Part shown: positions 22,165 through 32,993 of the stretch, one piece after another | How the letters are laid out: each line of letters starts with the position of its first letter | Position numbering within the stretch: the first letter of the stretch is position 1 | Made by a program: the position numbers and the translations under genes | Assembly: GCF_004362975.1 (NCBI RefSeq) | Contig: NZ_SNXO01000026.1 | Coordinates: 1-32,993 of the forward strand | DNA: 32,993 nucleotides | DNA from: Aminicella lysinilytica | GTDB lineage: Bacteria > Bacillota > Clostridia > Peptostreptococcales > Anaerovoracaceae | Direction of reading: 5' to 3' | Notes under the pieces: generated by a model | What the model was told of the DNA's origin: nothing | The model's input: the letters and a program-made list of their open reading frames with translations, nothing else | The model's database searches: none

Positions 22165-23235
22165 ATGAAATATGAATTTCCTGTAACCAAGACAACGGCT
22201 CCCAAGACCAAACCTGATGCAAAGGGCCTGAGGTTTGGAACCGTATTTACTGACCACATGTTTGTCATGGATTATAACGAGAAGGATGGATGGAACAACG
22301 GCAGAATAGTGCCTTATGGACCTATTACTTTGGATCCTGCAGCTGTGGTACTCCATTATGGACAGGAAATGTTTGAAGGCCTTAAAGCCTATAAGACCGC
22401 GGCCGGCAGAGTTCAGCTCTTCCGCCCTGATATGAATGCTAAGAGAACCAATAACACCAACGACAGGCTTTGTATACCTAAGGTTGACGAAGAACTCTTC
22501 GTAGACGCAATCAAAGCGCTGGTCAAGATCGACCAGGATTGGATACCTGAAGGCGAAGGCACTGCCCTTTACATCAGACCTTTCATCTTCGGAGATGAAG
22601 CCTTCCTGGGCGTAAGAAAATCCGCAACATATAAATTTATGATAATCCTGAGCCCTGTAGGCCCTTACTTTGAAAATGGCCTGGCTCCTACTAAGATGTA
22701 TGTAGAGGATGTCTATGTCAGAGCTGTCAAAGGCGGCACCGGCGAAGCTAAATGCGGCGGAAACTACGGTGGTTCCCTGAAGGCTCAGGAAATAGCTCAT
22801 GAAAAGGGATTCGAGCAGATCCTGTGGCTGGACGCTTATGAACAAAAGTACATTGAAGAGATCGGCGCAGCTAACGCTTTCTTCGTCATCGGCGATGAGA
22901 TCGTGACCAGCGCACTTAACGGATCGATTCTTCCGGGCATCACGAGAAATTCGATAATTGCCCTTTGCAAGAAAAAAGGATATAAGATTTCCGAAAGGAA
23001 AATATCAATAGATGAATTGGAAAACGCTTATCATGCAGGCCAGCTGAAGGAAATGTTTGCCTCCGGCACAGCTGCCATCGTATCTCCTGTCGGAGAGCTC
23101 CTTTATAAGGGCGAAGACATGGTCATCAATGACAACAAGATCGGCCCGGTAGCGCAGGAAATGTACGATACTATCTATGGGATCCAGACCGGTAAGATGG
23201 ATGATTTCATGGGATGGACCGTACCGGTGGAGTAG
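22165..23235 (+). CDS. ilvE: Branched-chain amino acid aminotransferase
   Basis: A 356-residue class IV PLP aminotransferase for the last step of valine, leucine and isoleucine synthesis or the first step of their breakdown. The HYGQEMFEGLKAY segment (about 64-76), the PLP lysine Lys196 in EAKCGGNYGGS, the EEIGAANAFF segment and SILPGITRNSII mark it as the longer, IlvE/BCAT type. AGAGGGA precedes the ATG. It lies divergently from the T-box-controlled valS, so both neighbours concern branched-chain amino acids. The next gene begins 2 bp after its stop. Confidence 0.96.
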   Translation: MKYEFPVTKTTAPKTKPDAKGLRFGTVFTDHMFVMDYNEKDGWNNGRIVPYGPITLDPAAVVLHYGQEMFEGLKAYKTAAGRVQLFRPDMNAKRTNNTNDRLCIPKVDEELFVDAIKALVKIDQDWIPEGEGTALYIRPFIFGDEAFLGVRKSATYKFMIILSPVGPYFENGLAPTKMYVEDVYVRAVKGGTGEAKCGGNYGGSLKAQEIAHEKGFEQILWLDAYEQKYIEEIGAANAFFVIGDEIVTSALNGSILPGITRNSIIALCKKKGYKISERKISIDELENAYHAGQLKEMFASGTAAIVSPVGELLYKGEDMVINDNKIGPVAQEMYDTIYGIQTGKMDDFMGWTVPVE

Positions 23236-23237
23236 AA

Positions 23238-24431
23238 ATGAATAATTCATTATCCGATTTAAACAACAAACTAAACGCCCTCTCCGTTTTTCGAAGTATA
23301 CTGGAGACCCCAGTGGTTTCCAGCCTTCAAAAACTTTTATATGCAATTGAAAACGGCTCCTTGGAATCTCAACTGAGGTGCTACGGAGCCTTTTCAAGTG
23401 CTTTATACAGAGAAGGCGGAAATTTAAGCCACTTTATAAGTGAGTTTATCAGAGAAGACGAAAACTTCTTTATGATAAAAACGACTGAAAATGCCATAAT
23501 AAGTCGTACTATCAGCAATTGTCTTGATGAGGAATTAACAGTTCTACAGGAACTGTCAGATTTAAAAACTCCTCAACTTATTGATTTGATTGATTACAAA
23601 AACTACTTACCTCATTGGGACAATTCGCAGGTAGATCTGAAAACCGAATATTATAAAATGATTGATGCCATACCTACTAAGGGATACGGCATTTTTGCAC
23701 GTTACCGTGCTTTTAAAATTGTTGACGGTAATTTAGTTCCTGTCAAGAACGCAGACCCTCAGACTATAGATTCGCTCTATGGATATGATCGGGAAAGAAA
23801 TCTGGTTCTGGAAAACACCCGGGCTCTTGCCGAAGGCAAAGGCGCCAGCAATGTTTTGTTGTATGGTGACGCCGGCACGGGCAAATCCTCTACTATCAAG
23901 GCCTGCGCTAACTATTTCCAAGGCATGGGCGTACGCCTTATTGAGTTTGACAAAAGTCAGCTTGCGGATATCCCCGCGATCATAGATGATCTCTACGACA
24001 GTCCTCTAAAGTTTATCTTTTTCATAGATGACTTAAGTTTTTCTGCCGGCGATGATTCTTTCTGTTTCCTGAAGGGGATCCTGGAAGGTAATGTTACGGG
24101 GAATTCTAAGAATATTGCTATATATGCCACCAGTAACAGACGGCATCTGGTCCGTGAGACGGGCGAGGAACGCCAGGGTACTGATATCCACTTAAATGAT
24201 ACGCTCCAGCAGACTATGAGTCTGTCGGCCCGTTTTGGTCTGACGATCACTTTCTCTAAGCCGGAGAAGGATCTGTATCTGGAGATCGTTGAGAAACTTG
24301 CCGGTGAGCATAATGTTCAGATGGATCGGGATGAGTTGTTCCACCGTGCGGAGGCTTTTGCTATCCGCCACAACGGACGCAGCCCACGAACAGCAAAACA
24401 ATTTTTAGAACTACTATGTATTGGATTATGA
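23238..24431 (+). CDS. DUF815-type AAA ATPase
   Basis: A 397-residue protein with an N-terminal helical region (about 1-190) and a C-terminal AAA domain. Walker A GDAGTGKSS is at 210-218, Walker B FIFFIDD at 259-265, and a sensor-like ATSNRRHLVRE segment follows. This matches the DUF815 family, whose function is not established. The start ATG 23238 has GGTGGAG 5 bases upstream, formed by the end of ilvE. Co-transcription with ilvE is likely. The 5' half is visibly AT-richer than the ATPase half. The stop is followed after 4 bp by the large palindromic element at 24436. Confidence 0.88.
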   Translation: MNNSLSDLNNKLNALSVFRSILETPVVSSLQKLLYAIENGSLESQLRCYGAFSSALYREGGNLSHFISEFIREDENFFMIKTTENAIISRTISNCLDEELTVLQELSDLKTPQLIDLIDYKNYLPHWDNSQVDLKTEYYKMIDAIPTKGYGIFARYRAFKIVDGNLVPVKNADPQTIDSLYGYDRERNLVLENTRALAEGKGASNVLLYGDAGTGKSSTIKACANYFQGMGVRLIEFDKSQLADIPAIIDDLYDSPLKFIFFIDDLSFSAGDDSFCFLKGILEGNVTGNSKNIAIYATSNRRHLVRETGEERQGTDIHLNDTLQQTMSLSARFGLTITFSKPEKDLYLEIVEKLAGEHNVQMDRDELFHRAEAFAIRHNGRSPRTAKQFLELLCIGL

Positions 24432-24435
24432 CTCA

Positions 24436-24712
24436 GGTGGGCATACAACAACCCACTAGTCCTCGTGCGCAGACAGCCCGTACGGCTTGTTCGCCAAGAG
24501 CAGAACACGCTGTGAACTAGCCGAAATAGCCAAAGTCTCCTTCAGAGACTTTAAAAGAGGATCCCATGGCAGAATCATACAAGTATGATTCTGCTCACGG
24601 CATTCTCTTTTTTTCGGCGTCAAACAGCACAGCGTGTTTAGCTGCTCTTGTTGTTCCCTTCGTCTCGGGCTGTAACTGCTCCTGCGGAAGCGTGGGATGC
24701 TGTACGCCCACC
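24436..24712 (+). repeat. Palindromic element, copy 1 (structured intergenic repeat)
   Basis: An imperfect 277 bp inverted repeat centred near 24582. Outer ends match: 24436-24456 is nearly the reverse complement of 24692-24712. Middle arms pair: GAGCAG 24498-24503 with CTGCTC 24642-24647, AACACGCTGTG 24504-24514 with CACAGCGTGTT 24628-24638, and GCCGAAA 24520-24526 with TTTCGGC 24612-24618. The left arm alone has a side hairpin, AAAGTCTC/GAGACTTT, at 24532-24552. The core is the terminator-like hairpin at 24553-24612. A homologous element lies in opposite orientation at 24841-25095. No ORF is conserved between copies, so an RNA or DNA structural role is more likely than a protein. Confidence 0.75.
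24553..24612 (+). terminator. Bidirectional terminator-like core of palindromic copy 1
   Basis: Outer stem AAAAGAGGAT (24553-24562) pairs with ATTCTCTTTT (24602-24611). Inside is a perfect 12 bp stem, GCAGAATCATAC/GTATGATTCTGC (24569-24594), with a 2-base turn. T runs lie on the 3' side of both strands, so it can end the ilvE-DUF815 transcript and anything coming from the other side. Confidence 0.75.
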
Positions 24713-24840
24713 TTTGCAGGTTGAAAGAGTCCTTGGTTTTAATTTTGATTACCAGATTCTCAGAATCGTCTTCCCTGTTATGGTTCAACAGTATGGTGTT
24801 CTCCCACAGGTATCTGGTTTGCAGTGGGCAACTAAGCGGC
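24713..24840. other. Spacer between the two palindromic copies
   Basis: No gene is supported here. It contains a small perfect palindrome, GATTCTCAGAATC, at 24755-24767 and a CCCAC/GTGGG hairpin at 24803-24828. No convincing -35/-10 pair was found on either strand. Open frames covering it are not conserved and look like chance. Confidence 0.4.
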
Positions 24841-25095
24841 ACTTTCCGAGACCTGAACGATTCCGCAGGAGCAGGTTCAATCATAGTCGCAGACGAGTAA
24901 CAAGGACAGACAAATGTGCGGCGCTGTCTGAGTTGAAATAAAAAAGAGGATTCTGCAGAGTAAATCGTACTTGTATGATTTACTCAAGGGATTCTCTTTT
25001 TAAAGGCTCCGAAGGAGACTTGAGATATTTCAACGAGTTCGCCGCATATTCTGTCCTTGACGAGTGAGACTATATGATTGTCTGCGACGAGGACT
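24841..25095 (-). repeat. Palindromic element, copy 2 (inverted relative to copy 1)
   Basis: Homologous to copy 1 when read on the minus strand. Arms pair as AAGGACAGA 24902-24910 with TCTGTCCTT 25050-25058, ATGTGCGGCG 24914-24923 with CGCCGCATAT 25040-25049 (one G-U), and GTTGAAA 24932-24938 with TTTCAAC 25028-25034. The side hairpin (AGGCTCC...GGAGACTT, 25003-25021) is now on the right arm, as expected for an inverted copy. The minus strand just after the secreted-protein stop reads GTCCTCGTCGCAGACA, matching GTCCTCGTGCGCAGACA at 24459-24475 of copy 1. The left boundary is approximate. Confidence 0.72.
24941..25001 (-). terminator. Bidirectional terminator-like core of palindromic copy 2
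   Basis: Outer stem AAAAAGAGGAT (24941-24951) pairs with ATTCTCTTTTT (24991-25001), as in copy 1. The inner stem, GAGTAAATCGTAC/GTATGATTTACTC (24958-24985), differs in its lower half from copy 1 yet remains paired with one G-U. It probably ends the transcript of the secreted-protein gene. Confidence 0.75.
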
Positions 25096-26267
25096 CAGTG
25101 AAGGTCGCGGGCAAGTGCCGCCGCCATGATCACTTTGCCGCAGTCGGCACAGGTAAGCGGATATGCATGACCGGTAGTCTTGACCTTCTTGATATAAGTC
25201 TTCATGTAAATTTTTACCCTGGTCTTGTCCCCCATCTCAGCGGCCGCAAGAGGCATATCGCCCCAGTAATACTCATCGGGATACTGCATCTTATCCCAGC
25301 GATGATTCTTCACCTTAGCCGTTGACCAGTGCTTGTTGAAACTCTTGTAGAGAGTTTTAGCACGGCCGCTCTTAGCCGAGATCACCCCATACTCGATTGG
25401 GAACATCTGAGCCGTTGCATCCATATAAAACCTGCTCCATTTGAACTTCCCAGACGGCTTCCCGTTCTTCTCAAGAGCCGGATAATAGTAGCCGCCCTTC
25501 TTGTTCCACATTTTAGAATTCATAGTTTTCCTGATTTTAGCCGCCGCAGATTTCTGCACGGCTATGTTTTCATCACCGGCGAACAAAGCCGAATACAGCC
25601 TGGCACCATCACGTGCCCCGGCGTAGACCTCAGCGTTATCCATAGCGTACTTGACCTGGTAGTCTGGTCTCGCCATAGTCAGACCTTTGTTCATTGTACA
25701 AAGCATAGCGCTGATGACCCTGTCAATGTCAGCTTTGTGTGCTGTAATGCAGGTCGAATCACCTGTGACCCTGTAATATTTCCACAAAAGCTGCAGGAAT
25801 GTGGCCGCGTAGGAATCCGTAGAATCATAGAAGGCCTTGCCTTTGACCTTATACACCTTTTCTTCCTTCAGGTTGCCCTTCTGATCAACATATTCGTAAT
25901 AGTCGTAAATAGTCCCTTCCTGGCCGCAAATGTCCGTCTCTGCCCTATTCAGACGGTCGAAATGCCATTCCAGATATTTTCTGACGTTGGCTGCATACTT
26001 CTCTCCGCTCTCTAAGAGGGCCATAGCGGCAAAATCTGAAAAATACGGTGTTTCCTTCAATGCCCCGTTGGTGCCTTTGAAAGATGTTTCAGGAATGGCA
26101 CCGTTGGACAGCTGCAGCGATGCCAGCCACTCAGACTCGTCAGTGACTGTTTTGTTATAAAAATCAACGTCAGAAGCAGCAAAAACCGCGTCTGACGCCA
26201 GAAAAACGGTGACTAAAATAATAGTCAGCATTATGATTGCTATTCTATTGACTATCTTACCATACAC
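25095..26267 (-). CDS. Secreted protein, probable six-hairpin (alpha/alpha) fold
   Basis: A 390-residue exported protein. The N-terminus has a signal peptide: basic start, hydrophobic core (about 9-25) and a likely cleavage after DAVFA at about 30. The mature part has Trp/Tyr-rich helical repeats beginning with EWLASLQLSNGAIP (about 46-59), then YDSTDSYAATFLQLLWKYY and DMPLAAAEMGD, which resembles the six-hairpin glycosidase superfamily. I cannot name a substrate. A late C-x-x-C lies near the end. The GTG at 26267 is preferred: AAGGAG lies 9 bases upstream and it gives a clean signal peptide, starting 13 bp after the diguanylate cyclase gene. The His codon and stop fall at the edge of palindromic copy 2. 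Confidence 0.72.
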   Translation of the reverse strand: MYGKIVNRIAIIMLTIILVTVFLASDAVFAASDVDFYNKTVTDESEWLASLQLSNGAIPETSFKGTNGALKETPYFSDFAAMALLESGEKYAANVRKYLEWHFDRLNRAETDICGQEGTIYDYYEYVDQKGNLKEEKVYKVKGKAFYDSTDSYAATFLQLLWKYYRVTGDSTCITAHKADIDRVISAMLCTMNKGLTMARPDYQVKYAMDNAEVYAGARDGARLYSALFAGDENIAVQKSAAAKIRKTMNSKMWNKKGGYYYPALEKNGKPSGKFKWSRFYMDATAQMFPIEYGVISAKSGRAKTLYKSFNKHWSTAKVKNHRWDKMQYPDEYYWGDMPLAAAEMGDKTRVKIYMKTYIKKVKTTGHAYPLTCADCGKVIMAAALARDLH

Positions 26268-26280
26268 ACCTTCACACTCC

Positions 26281-27183
26281 TTACTGATCCTTATAGACAA
26301 CCACGCAGTTCTTCCCCTGTCTCTTGGCTTCATACAGTGCTCTGTCTGCATATTTCAGCAGTATGCTCTTCTCTGCGTTGGCATCAGGTATCATAGTGGC
26401 CAGCCCTGCGCTTACGGTCAGCGCCATGATTTGAGTCGATGTTGCGTCTACTACCTTCATCTTAGCCATCTCTGAACGTAATCTGTCAGATACAAGTTTC
26501 ACTCCGTCTTCATTGGTATCAGGAAGCAGAATCACGAACTCGTCTCCTCCGTATCTGCCTACGAAGTCACTGGCTCTCTTGACAGATCTGTCAAGAACTG
26601 CCGCTGTATATTGAAGGCACTCATCGCCCTTCAGATGACCGAAAGTATCGTTGATATGCTTGAAGTCATCTATATCGATTATAATACATGAAATCGGCTG
26701 CCTGTTTCTGATTGCCTGGGCAAGATACATCTCATATATATCATCTAGGGCACGCCTGTTGGAAAGTCCGGTCAGCGGATCTATAGTAACCAGAGCCTGG
26801 AGCTTATTGTTACTGTCCATAAGTTCCTGATTCTTCCTGTCAAATTTCTTTTTCAGCATGCCTACCATAATGACCATGAATATAATTGCGACGACCATAA
26901 CAACGATTTTCTCAAAATTACCCTCGGTGACAGATATACTGCCCCCGCTATGATCAGAATAGTAGAACAAAGTATAACCTACGGTGACGATCCCACTTGT
27001 GACACCGCCGGCATAACCATACACCAATGAGAAAAAGACTATAGCCACCAGTAAGATAGCGTCCGGATTAGGAACGTGTACACAGAAATTTAAAACACAC
27101 AAAGCCACAGTGATTGCAGCAGACACAAAAATAGTAACTGCGATACCTGTGTCTTCACCTACTCTATCGATCCGTTCATTCAT
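26281..27183 (-). CDS. Membrane-bound diguanylate cyclase (GGDEF)
   Basis: A 300-residue protein with four or so hydrophobic segments (about 15-112), then a short linker coil and a GGDEF domain starting at DPLTGLSNRRA (about 135). The active-site GGDEF is intact at 212-216. The RxxD inhibitory site, RASD at 203-206, lies five residues ahead, so product feedback is expected. It should make cyclic di-GMP in response to a signal sensed in the membrane region. AAGAGG precedes the ATG. It has its own promoter and is followed after 13 bp by the secreted-protein gene. Confidence 0.92.
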   Translation of the reverse strand: MNERIDRVGEDTGIAVTIFVSAAITVALCVLNFCVHVPNPDAILLVAIVFFSLVYGYAGGVTSGIVTVGYTLFYYSDHSGGSISVTEGNFEKIVVMVVAIIFMVIMVGMLKKKFDRKNQELMDSNNKLQALVTIDPLTGLSNRRALDDIYEMYLAQAIRNRQPISCIIIDIDDFKHINDTFGHLKGDECLQYTAAVLDRSVKRASDFVGRYGGDEFVILLPDTNEDGVKLVSDRLRSEMAKMKVVDATSTQIMALTVSAGLATMIPDANAEKSILLKYADRALYEAKRQGKNCVVVYKDQ

Positions 27184-32901: not shown

Positions 32902-32993
32902 AATCGAGTAGGGGCTAGCAAGTAGCCCCTCTCACACCACCGTACATGCCGTTCGGCATACGGCGGTTCAATTCATATAATAATCTAAACAAC
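32902..32993 (-). mobile_element. 3' end of a group II intron (domains V and VI), partial
   Basis: On the minus strand, 32936-32968 folds as domain V: ACCGCCGTATGCC pairs with GGCATGTACGGTGGT around a small GAAC-type loop, leaving the diagnostic 2-base bulge. The triad before CGTAT reads CGC, as in class C introns. GTGAGAGG then leads to domain VI, GGGGCTA/TAGCCCC, and the typical ending CCTACTCGAT. The splice end is near 32902-32904. The intron body and any maturase gene lie beyond the right edge. Confidence 0.78.

Follow-up and report, generated by a model that had tools for sequence, protein, structure and literature searches.

A patchy family of palindromic gene-end repeats in Aminicella lysinilytica and its relatives, with a probable role in transcription termination

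Two large palindromes lie between convergent genes in a 32,993-nucleotide stretch of an Aminicella lysinilytica contig (NZ_SNXO01000026.1, hereafter the window), raising the question of whether they are mobile DNA, structured RNA or part of the genes that they follow. The initial annotation had described them as inverted copies of one imperfect palindrome with an extra side hairpin on one arm, had recognized no RNA or repeat family in them, and had proposed a MITE-like element, a 3′-UTR RNA or a structured small RNA. The palindromes are real, as both fold far below their shuffles: copy 1 reached −140.2 kcal/mol, its shuffles −81.8 (z −10.8), and copy 2 (folded as 24838–25124, − strand) −103.2 against −69.0 (z −7.0), with none of 200 shuffles as stable as either. 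The two copies are in opposite orientation to each other, each sense to its own gene and directly behind it, and the genes (DUF815 on the + strand, a 418-aa ORF on the − strand) converge as had been described. The single side hairpin was seen in both copies, at 24532–24552 and at about 25003–25021. A profile search placed the best bounds of copy 2 at 24829–25123, which puts its left arm over the final codons of the 418-aa ORF (25095–26351); for this ORF, Pfam gave no match at E 0.001 and neither did a search of 16 congeners at E 1e-20. The failure to place the palindromes in an RNA family also held, as Rfam gave no match at the element at gathering score and below it only chance-level hits. 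Elsewhere in the window, a group II intron end domain (RF00029, 44.1 bits) lies at 32903–32968 (− strand), near the contig end. The parts of the locus are as follows.

23214–24431, + strand: DUF815 ATPase gene, upstream of copy 1 (Pfam)
24432–24716, + strand: copy 1, complete rod, directly after the stop codon of the DUF815 gene (fold z −10.8, blastn, profile search)
24432–24458, + strand: left outer arm of copy 1, copy-specific sequence, pairs with 24690–24716 (fold, alignment)
24459–24470, + strand: conserved 5′ box of copy 1, GTCCTCGTGCGC (alignment)
24515–24520, + strand: AACTAG of copy 1, equivalent of the conserved AACTCG box at the short-form apical loop (alignment)
24532–24552, + strand: side hairpin of copy 1 (sequence, fold)
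24553–24614, + strand: apical hairpin of copy 1, with an A-run before the stem and a T-run after it (fold)
24676–24689, + strand: conserved 3′ box of copy 1, CTGCTCCTGCGGAA (alignment)
24690–24716, + strand: right outer arm of copy 1 (fold, alignment)
24720–24749, + strand: conserved tail after copy 1, beginning GTTGAAAGAGTCCTTGGTTTTA (same tail behind other copies)
24829–25123, − strand: copy 2, sense, behind the ORF at 25095–26351 (fold z −7.0, blastn, profile search)
24838–24860, − strand: right outer arm of copy 2, mirroring the coding left arm (fold, alignment)
24861–24874, − strand: conserved 3′ box of copy 2, CTGCTCCTGCGGAA (sequence, alignment)
25084–25094, − strand: conserved 5′ box of copy 2, GTCCTCGTCGC, adjoining the TGA stop codon at 25095–25097 (sequence, alignment)
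25098–25123, − strand: left outer arm of copy 2, formed by the last codons of the ORF at 25095–26351 (sequence, ORF list, alignment)
25095–26351, − strand: 418-aa ORF, upstream of copy 2 (ORF list)

Further copies, which the initial annotation had suggested looking for, are plentiful. With copy 1 as DNA query, blastn returned 61 pieces in the host genome (G000, 2.29 Mb), itself included, the longer ones 66–79% identical to it. A profile built from these hits and run only on the G000 stretches fetched around them found 34 copies above 100 bits and 12 weaker pieces; because the search was limited to those stretches copies can be missed, and one (C4:93319) was later added by model R2. Common to the copies are the boxes GTCCTCGTGCGC in the 5′ arm and CTGCTCCTGCGGAA in the 3′ arm, and much of the stem varies. 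A tail running from GTTGAAAG to TTGGTTTT stood behind 17 of 29 copies examined in G000. At four convergent near-complete pairs in this genome (C8, C26, C28 and C41), exactly one copy per pair had the GTTGAAAG tail.

The family extends to relatives, where it is multicopy too. With one long copy as query, blastn in 40 relatives gave no hit beyond its own genome, so covariance models were needed to find the copies there. Elements range from about 200 to 330 bp. The short form (about 200 bp) has a small hairpin between AACTCG and CTCARACA; at that place the long form, found in the window, has about 100 nt with the side hairpin and the A-run/stem/T-run hairpin when the alignments are compared. A covariance model search, again a step that had been proposed, covered 118 other genomes in the family and matched the short form in 4 of them; a short-form IUPAC pattern, run on 393 genomes from the order, occurred in 11, all of them members of that family, with none for the reversed control pattern. 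The same pattern matched 60 stretches in GTDB species genomes, seven of which were judged chance and set aside by title and low self-complementarity (Streptomyces (2), Lentzea, Nevskia, Planctomycetota, Natrinema and an unclassified bacterium). By title, the remaining 53 came from uncultured Clostridiales, Clostridia, Bacillota, Firmicutes or Eubacterium; 21 of them derived from the gut of goats or roe deer, including one titled Mogibacterium, an Anaerovoracaceae genus. The short-form carriers are related gut Clostridia, probably of the Anaerovoracaceae.

Distribution among close relatives was patchy. A second model matched 35 times in G350 (some weak), 29 in G000, 25 in G374, 13 in G348, 11 in G345, 9 in G360, 8 in G014, 7 in G100, 6 each in G361 and G402, 5 in G413, 2 in G400, once each in G004 and G081, and not at all in G002. 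Three genomes of the genus of G348 (G435, G428 and G426, two of them less than 85% complete) had no match at E 1e-8. Plasmid and phage collections queried with copy 1 gave no match, nor did IMG/VR viral contigs queried with the short-form pattern (0 matches). We found no description of the family in the literature, where coverage of subscription journals and preprints was poor; it is apparently an undescribed family of palindromic gene-end repeats and a variant of the REP/MITE kind, unusual within that kind in the place of the element and the history of its stems. That the family exists and sits at gene ends can be stated with high confidence.

Copies stand in a regular relation to genes. Among 39 copies and pieces in G000, 29 have a sense stop codon no more than 20 nt from their start and two have an antisense one nearby (ORFs called mechanically, at least 80 codons), in line with the 3′ context that had been suspected. 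When all fetched loci are pooled, 75 copies follow a sense ORF (100 codons or longer) whose end lies 18–59 nt before the core. Neighbouring copies less than about 450 nt apart, among those listed, comprise at least 17 convergent and at least three tandem pairs and no divergent pair; tandem same-orientation copies were seen at G000:C11:17220-17836, L066 (G100) and L248 (G014). At many G374 and G402 loci the element begins behind the T-run of an ordinary terminator, not in its place. A second, shorter hairpin repeat, about TGTGTCAAAAGGGACGGTTCTTTTTGACACA, also occurs at gene ends, sometimes just before the element (L207, L209, L212, L215 and L297 in G374; L274 in G446). At L275 of G446 another hairpin repeat, with GTATCACTATT and AATAGTGATAC, lies behind the stop codon where the close relative G348 has the element.

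Sense orientation behind a gene is also a property of intrinsic terminators, and we compared seven orthologous gene ends within one genus, using a strict intrinsic-terminator rule over 150 nt (L304, truncated, was left out). An ordinary terminator was present at 24 of the 30 gene ends that lack the element. Where the element is present, the core lies within 45 nt of the stop codon in 15 of 18 cases, leaving no room for a separate terminator before it; the terminator-before-element test was run only on the other three, with cores more than 45 nt after the stop, and one of these has a terminator there. At most compared loci, then, no ordinary terminator stands between stop codon and element. At the DUF815 locus, six congeners have no element within 200 nt of the gene end, and the strict rule gives a terminator in five of them, one weak; in the sixth a hairpin with a longer loop can be seen by eye. 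Across copies, the eight nucleotides after the apical stem contained a mean of 4.17 T where no terminator lies upstream (n=58) versus 3.19 where one does (n=31; p 0.007), the split by upstream terminator being a rough one.

Direct scans for terminators were mostly negative. The strict scan of window positions 24100–25500 gave 0 sites, with 1.2 expected by chance, and did not recognize the apical hairpin of copy 1, which is terminator-like by eye. Our strict rule placed a site inside only 1 of 18 elements; at 3 of the 18 gene ends a site follows the core, always within the right arm or a tandem right arm. T-runs are often short, with at least four T in eight in 53 of 92 copies. Five of 29 G000 copies are followed, 30–180 nt beyond the core, by a terminator-like site, and this site may be the actual end of a few genes. 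With strict scans mostly negative, and position and replacement positive, it is from position and replacement that a terminator role is drawn: the element most likely acts as the transcription terminator of its gene through the apical hairpin and T-run, and we hold with moderate confidence that it ends transcription. With Rho-independent terminators, among them those related to DNA uptake signals, it shares the position that terminators occupy in orthologs and an apical hairpin with A-run and T-run, but it differs from them in the large rod around that hairpin, the boxes common to copies and its nature as an interspersed family.

Are the repeats mobile? Whole elements are replaced while their flanks stay: L235 and L276 are 0.973 identical in the flanks and 0.726 in the element, and L135 and L274 0.961 and 0.711. 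The element is palindromic throughout, and neither a target-site duplication nor a clean empty site was obtained among the loci compared; the word mobile therefore rests on copy number, patchiness and turnover. Candidate partners were sought among the genomes. Y1_Tnp was present in 3 of 11 genomes and absent from G000 and 7 of the 10 others; no integron integrase scored above cut-off in 16 genomes; and reverse transcriptase was missing from the carriers G374, G361, G014 and G402, all draft genomes. Among the genomes tested, the presence pattern thus fits none of RAYT, integron integrase or reverse transcriptase as partner. Weak matches to tyrosine recombinases occurred in all 16 genomes, and one of these enzymes may be the mover. 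True transposition, like hairpin-templated copying, is something that we infer.

REPs are dispersed palindromic intergenic repeats at gene ends, patchy in distribution and present in many copies per genome. The element resembles REP, REPIN and BIME sequences with RAYT in being dispersed, palindromic, intergenic, located at gene ends, patchy and multicopy; those are short hairpins, whereas here 200–330-bp rods with several internal loops carry other boxes, and the RAYT-type Y1_Tnp is mostly absent, as described above. MITEs and the pneumococcal BOX, RUP and SPRITE repeats are likewise non-coding, foldable and interspersed in intergenic space, and the element is, like MITEs, dispersed, non-coding and multicopy. 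It differs in its sense position at stop codons and in a variable stem with kept pairing, and no target duplication or parent insertion sequence was identified for it. Could it nonetheless be selfish, a non-autonomous MITE- or REP-like transposable element that a transposase moves, that has no host role and for which gene ends are tolerated landing sites? Many palindromic copies, patchiness among close relatives and turnover faster than the flanks at several loci would all agree with this. We consider it unlikely, as the tight stop-codon spacing, the sense orientation and the terminator places taken go beyond what tolerance would explain, neither terminal repeats nor a duplicated target could be defined, and Y1_Tnp is absent from most carriers tested.

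The alternative that the rod is a structured 3′-UTR RNA or small RNA, kept by selection on the transcript, draws on the sense position behind genes and on two features of structured RNA that the element possesses, folding above chance (z −10.8 and −7.0) and covariation. The covariation that the initial annotation had recommended looking for was strong, with changes on both sides in 44 of 60 RNAalifold pairs. A third feature, tolerance of G-U above A-C at covarying pairs, is lacking. We counted mispairs at pairs chosen by Watson–Crick frequency alone (two other thresholds agree) in alignments of 29 long-form copies (5 of 34 left out, with no clear box or odd spacing) and 50 short-form copies (6 of 56 left out as duplicates or cut off). 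GT:AC at covarying pairs was 47:69 in the long form and 35:44 in the short form, against 44:8 in an RNase P control (30 of 38 matching genomes, one genus; pairs picked with the same crude rule and not from the known structure). Over all pairs the ratios were 81:87 for the long form, 39:45 for the short form and 71:41 for RNase P, a weaker contrast than in covarying pairs. A raw short-form arm count (54 GT, 105 AC) was dropped in favour of the covarying-pair count because it included fixed mismatches. Since both strands, if transcribed and folded, could balance G-U and A-C, this result only disfavours an RNA.

Comparison of close orthologs pointed the same way. Twelve ortholog pairs with element identity of at least 0.89 had 75 one-arm changes, 3 compensated changes and 12 in neither class, counts that are not independent because some loci recur among the pairs (L087 in four, L094 in two); a small number of matches in this comparison seem misparsed. 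Stems between close relatives thus decay in one arm. Double changes appear at lower identity, partly as blocks: L230 and L273 keep their outer arms and have apical stems that differ on both sides, and L228 and L272 have the same apical-stem block difference plus arm changes. As the apical half is one contiguous stretch, a swap between copies gives covariation without selection. An RNA kept by selection is therefore quite improbable, given the absence of a G-U preference, the 75 one-arm against 3 double changes and the lack of an Rfam match. Pairing seems to be restored in the course of DNA copying or exchange and not guarded in place, and we have moderate confidence that stem pairing is a DNA-level matter. 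The A-C excess, which is slight, could come from a folded bottom strand or from mutation bias.

Template switching is a known DNA process that creates and mends hairpins (PMC8794818), and homogenization of the arms in place by replication template switching (quasipalindrome correction), with neither mobility nor function, would account for A-C and G-U being about equal. It would also suit some mirrored sequence: the last 12 nt of the gene are mirrored in the right flank with a mean score of 4.96 versus 4.29 in shuffles (sd 0.12), above all 200 shuffles, although strong mirroring (score at least 8) occurs in only 4 of 75 copies, and the coding arm of copy 2 is mirrored. An early idea took the outer arms for reverse copies of target sequence; it is weakened by the arms within G374 and within G000 looking alike by eye, and the mirrored gene end is what remains of it. 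Like the hairpins in PMC8794818, these stems would owe their perfection to the copying of DNA and not to selection on an RNA, but the cases there are RNA genes and not dispersed gene-end repeats. Correction in place is very improbable as the whole explanation, leaving unaccounted for the dozens of copies with common boxes and sense position and the turnover of whole elements between conserved flanks, and close orthologs show decay, not repair. Behind the core at L276 and L235, two or three tandem right arms occur, each starting GCTCCTGCGGAA, and by eye the left arms of these two close relatives pair with different ones. Tandem right arms are present at L230 as well, and at all three loci they resemble scars left by previous elements.

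Integron attC sites are imperfect palindromes behind a stop codon, sense to the gene, with structure kept over sequence and with core boxes GTTRRRY and RYYYAAC. The element shares the place, the gene's orientation and the kept structure, and its slight A-C excess is what a folded bottom strand would give, but an attC-like recombination site behind a cassette gene is scarcely credible, as copies are scattered over contigs with no cassette array, no integron integrase scored above cut-off in the 16 genomes, the conserved boxes are internal, and no GTTRRRY/RYYYAAC boxes were seen by eye at the ends of aligned copies.

The reading that we favour, at a probability of roughly 0.6, is a patchy, mobile-like palindromic DNA repeat that takes over as the terminator of the gene it follows and whose stems are renewed at the DNA level. 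A copy would settle in sense, immediately behind the stop codon or behind the T-run of a terminator, and in many places would stand where the intrinsic terminator of the gene would be, serving as 3′ end and terminator through its apical hairpin with T-run. The stem would be perfect or nearly so at the birth of the copy, would then decay in one arm or the other, and would be refreshed by exchange of apical modules or of whole elements or by re-copying from a hairpin; the long stem would persist for a reason other than the need of an RNA to fold. Of the readings proposed at the outset, MITE-like fits the many copies and their patchiness among close relatives and 3′-UTR fits their position, mostly behind genes, whereas the structured small RNA is disfavoured by covariation that has no G-U preference and by the near absence of compensation in close orthologs. 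More tentatively, the family might be a chromosomal element of a new kind, spreading to the ends of transcripts via a DNA hairpin intermediate and taking over host terminators. At each copying, one arm would be rewritten from the other, making every copy a perfect but different palindrome; the element would take over the terminator and decay until a fresh copy replaced it there.

Strong covariation commonly passes as proof that an RNA is functional. The present repeats covary very strongly and yet fail two simple checks for selection on RNA, the comparison of G-U with A-C and the pattern of change in close orthologs, which makes them both a warning and a test case for covariation-based RNA discovery. 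If the elements do end transcription, they would be a case of mobile-like DNA that has captured an essential signal at dozens of genes, and would themselves offer a natural swap series for the study of terminator evolution.
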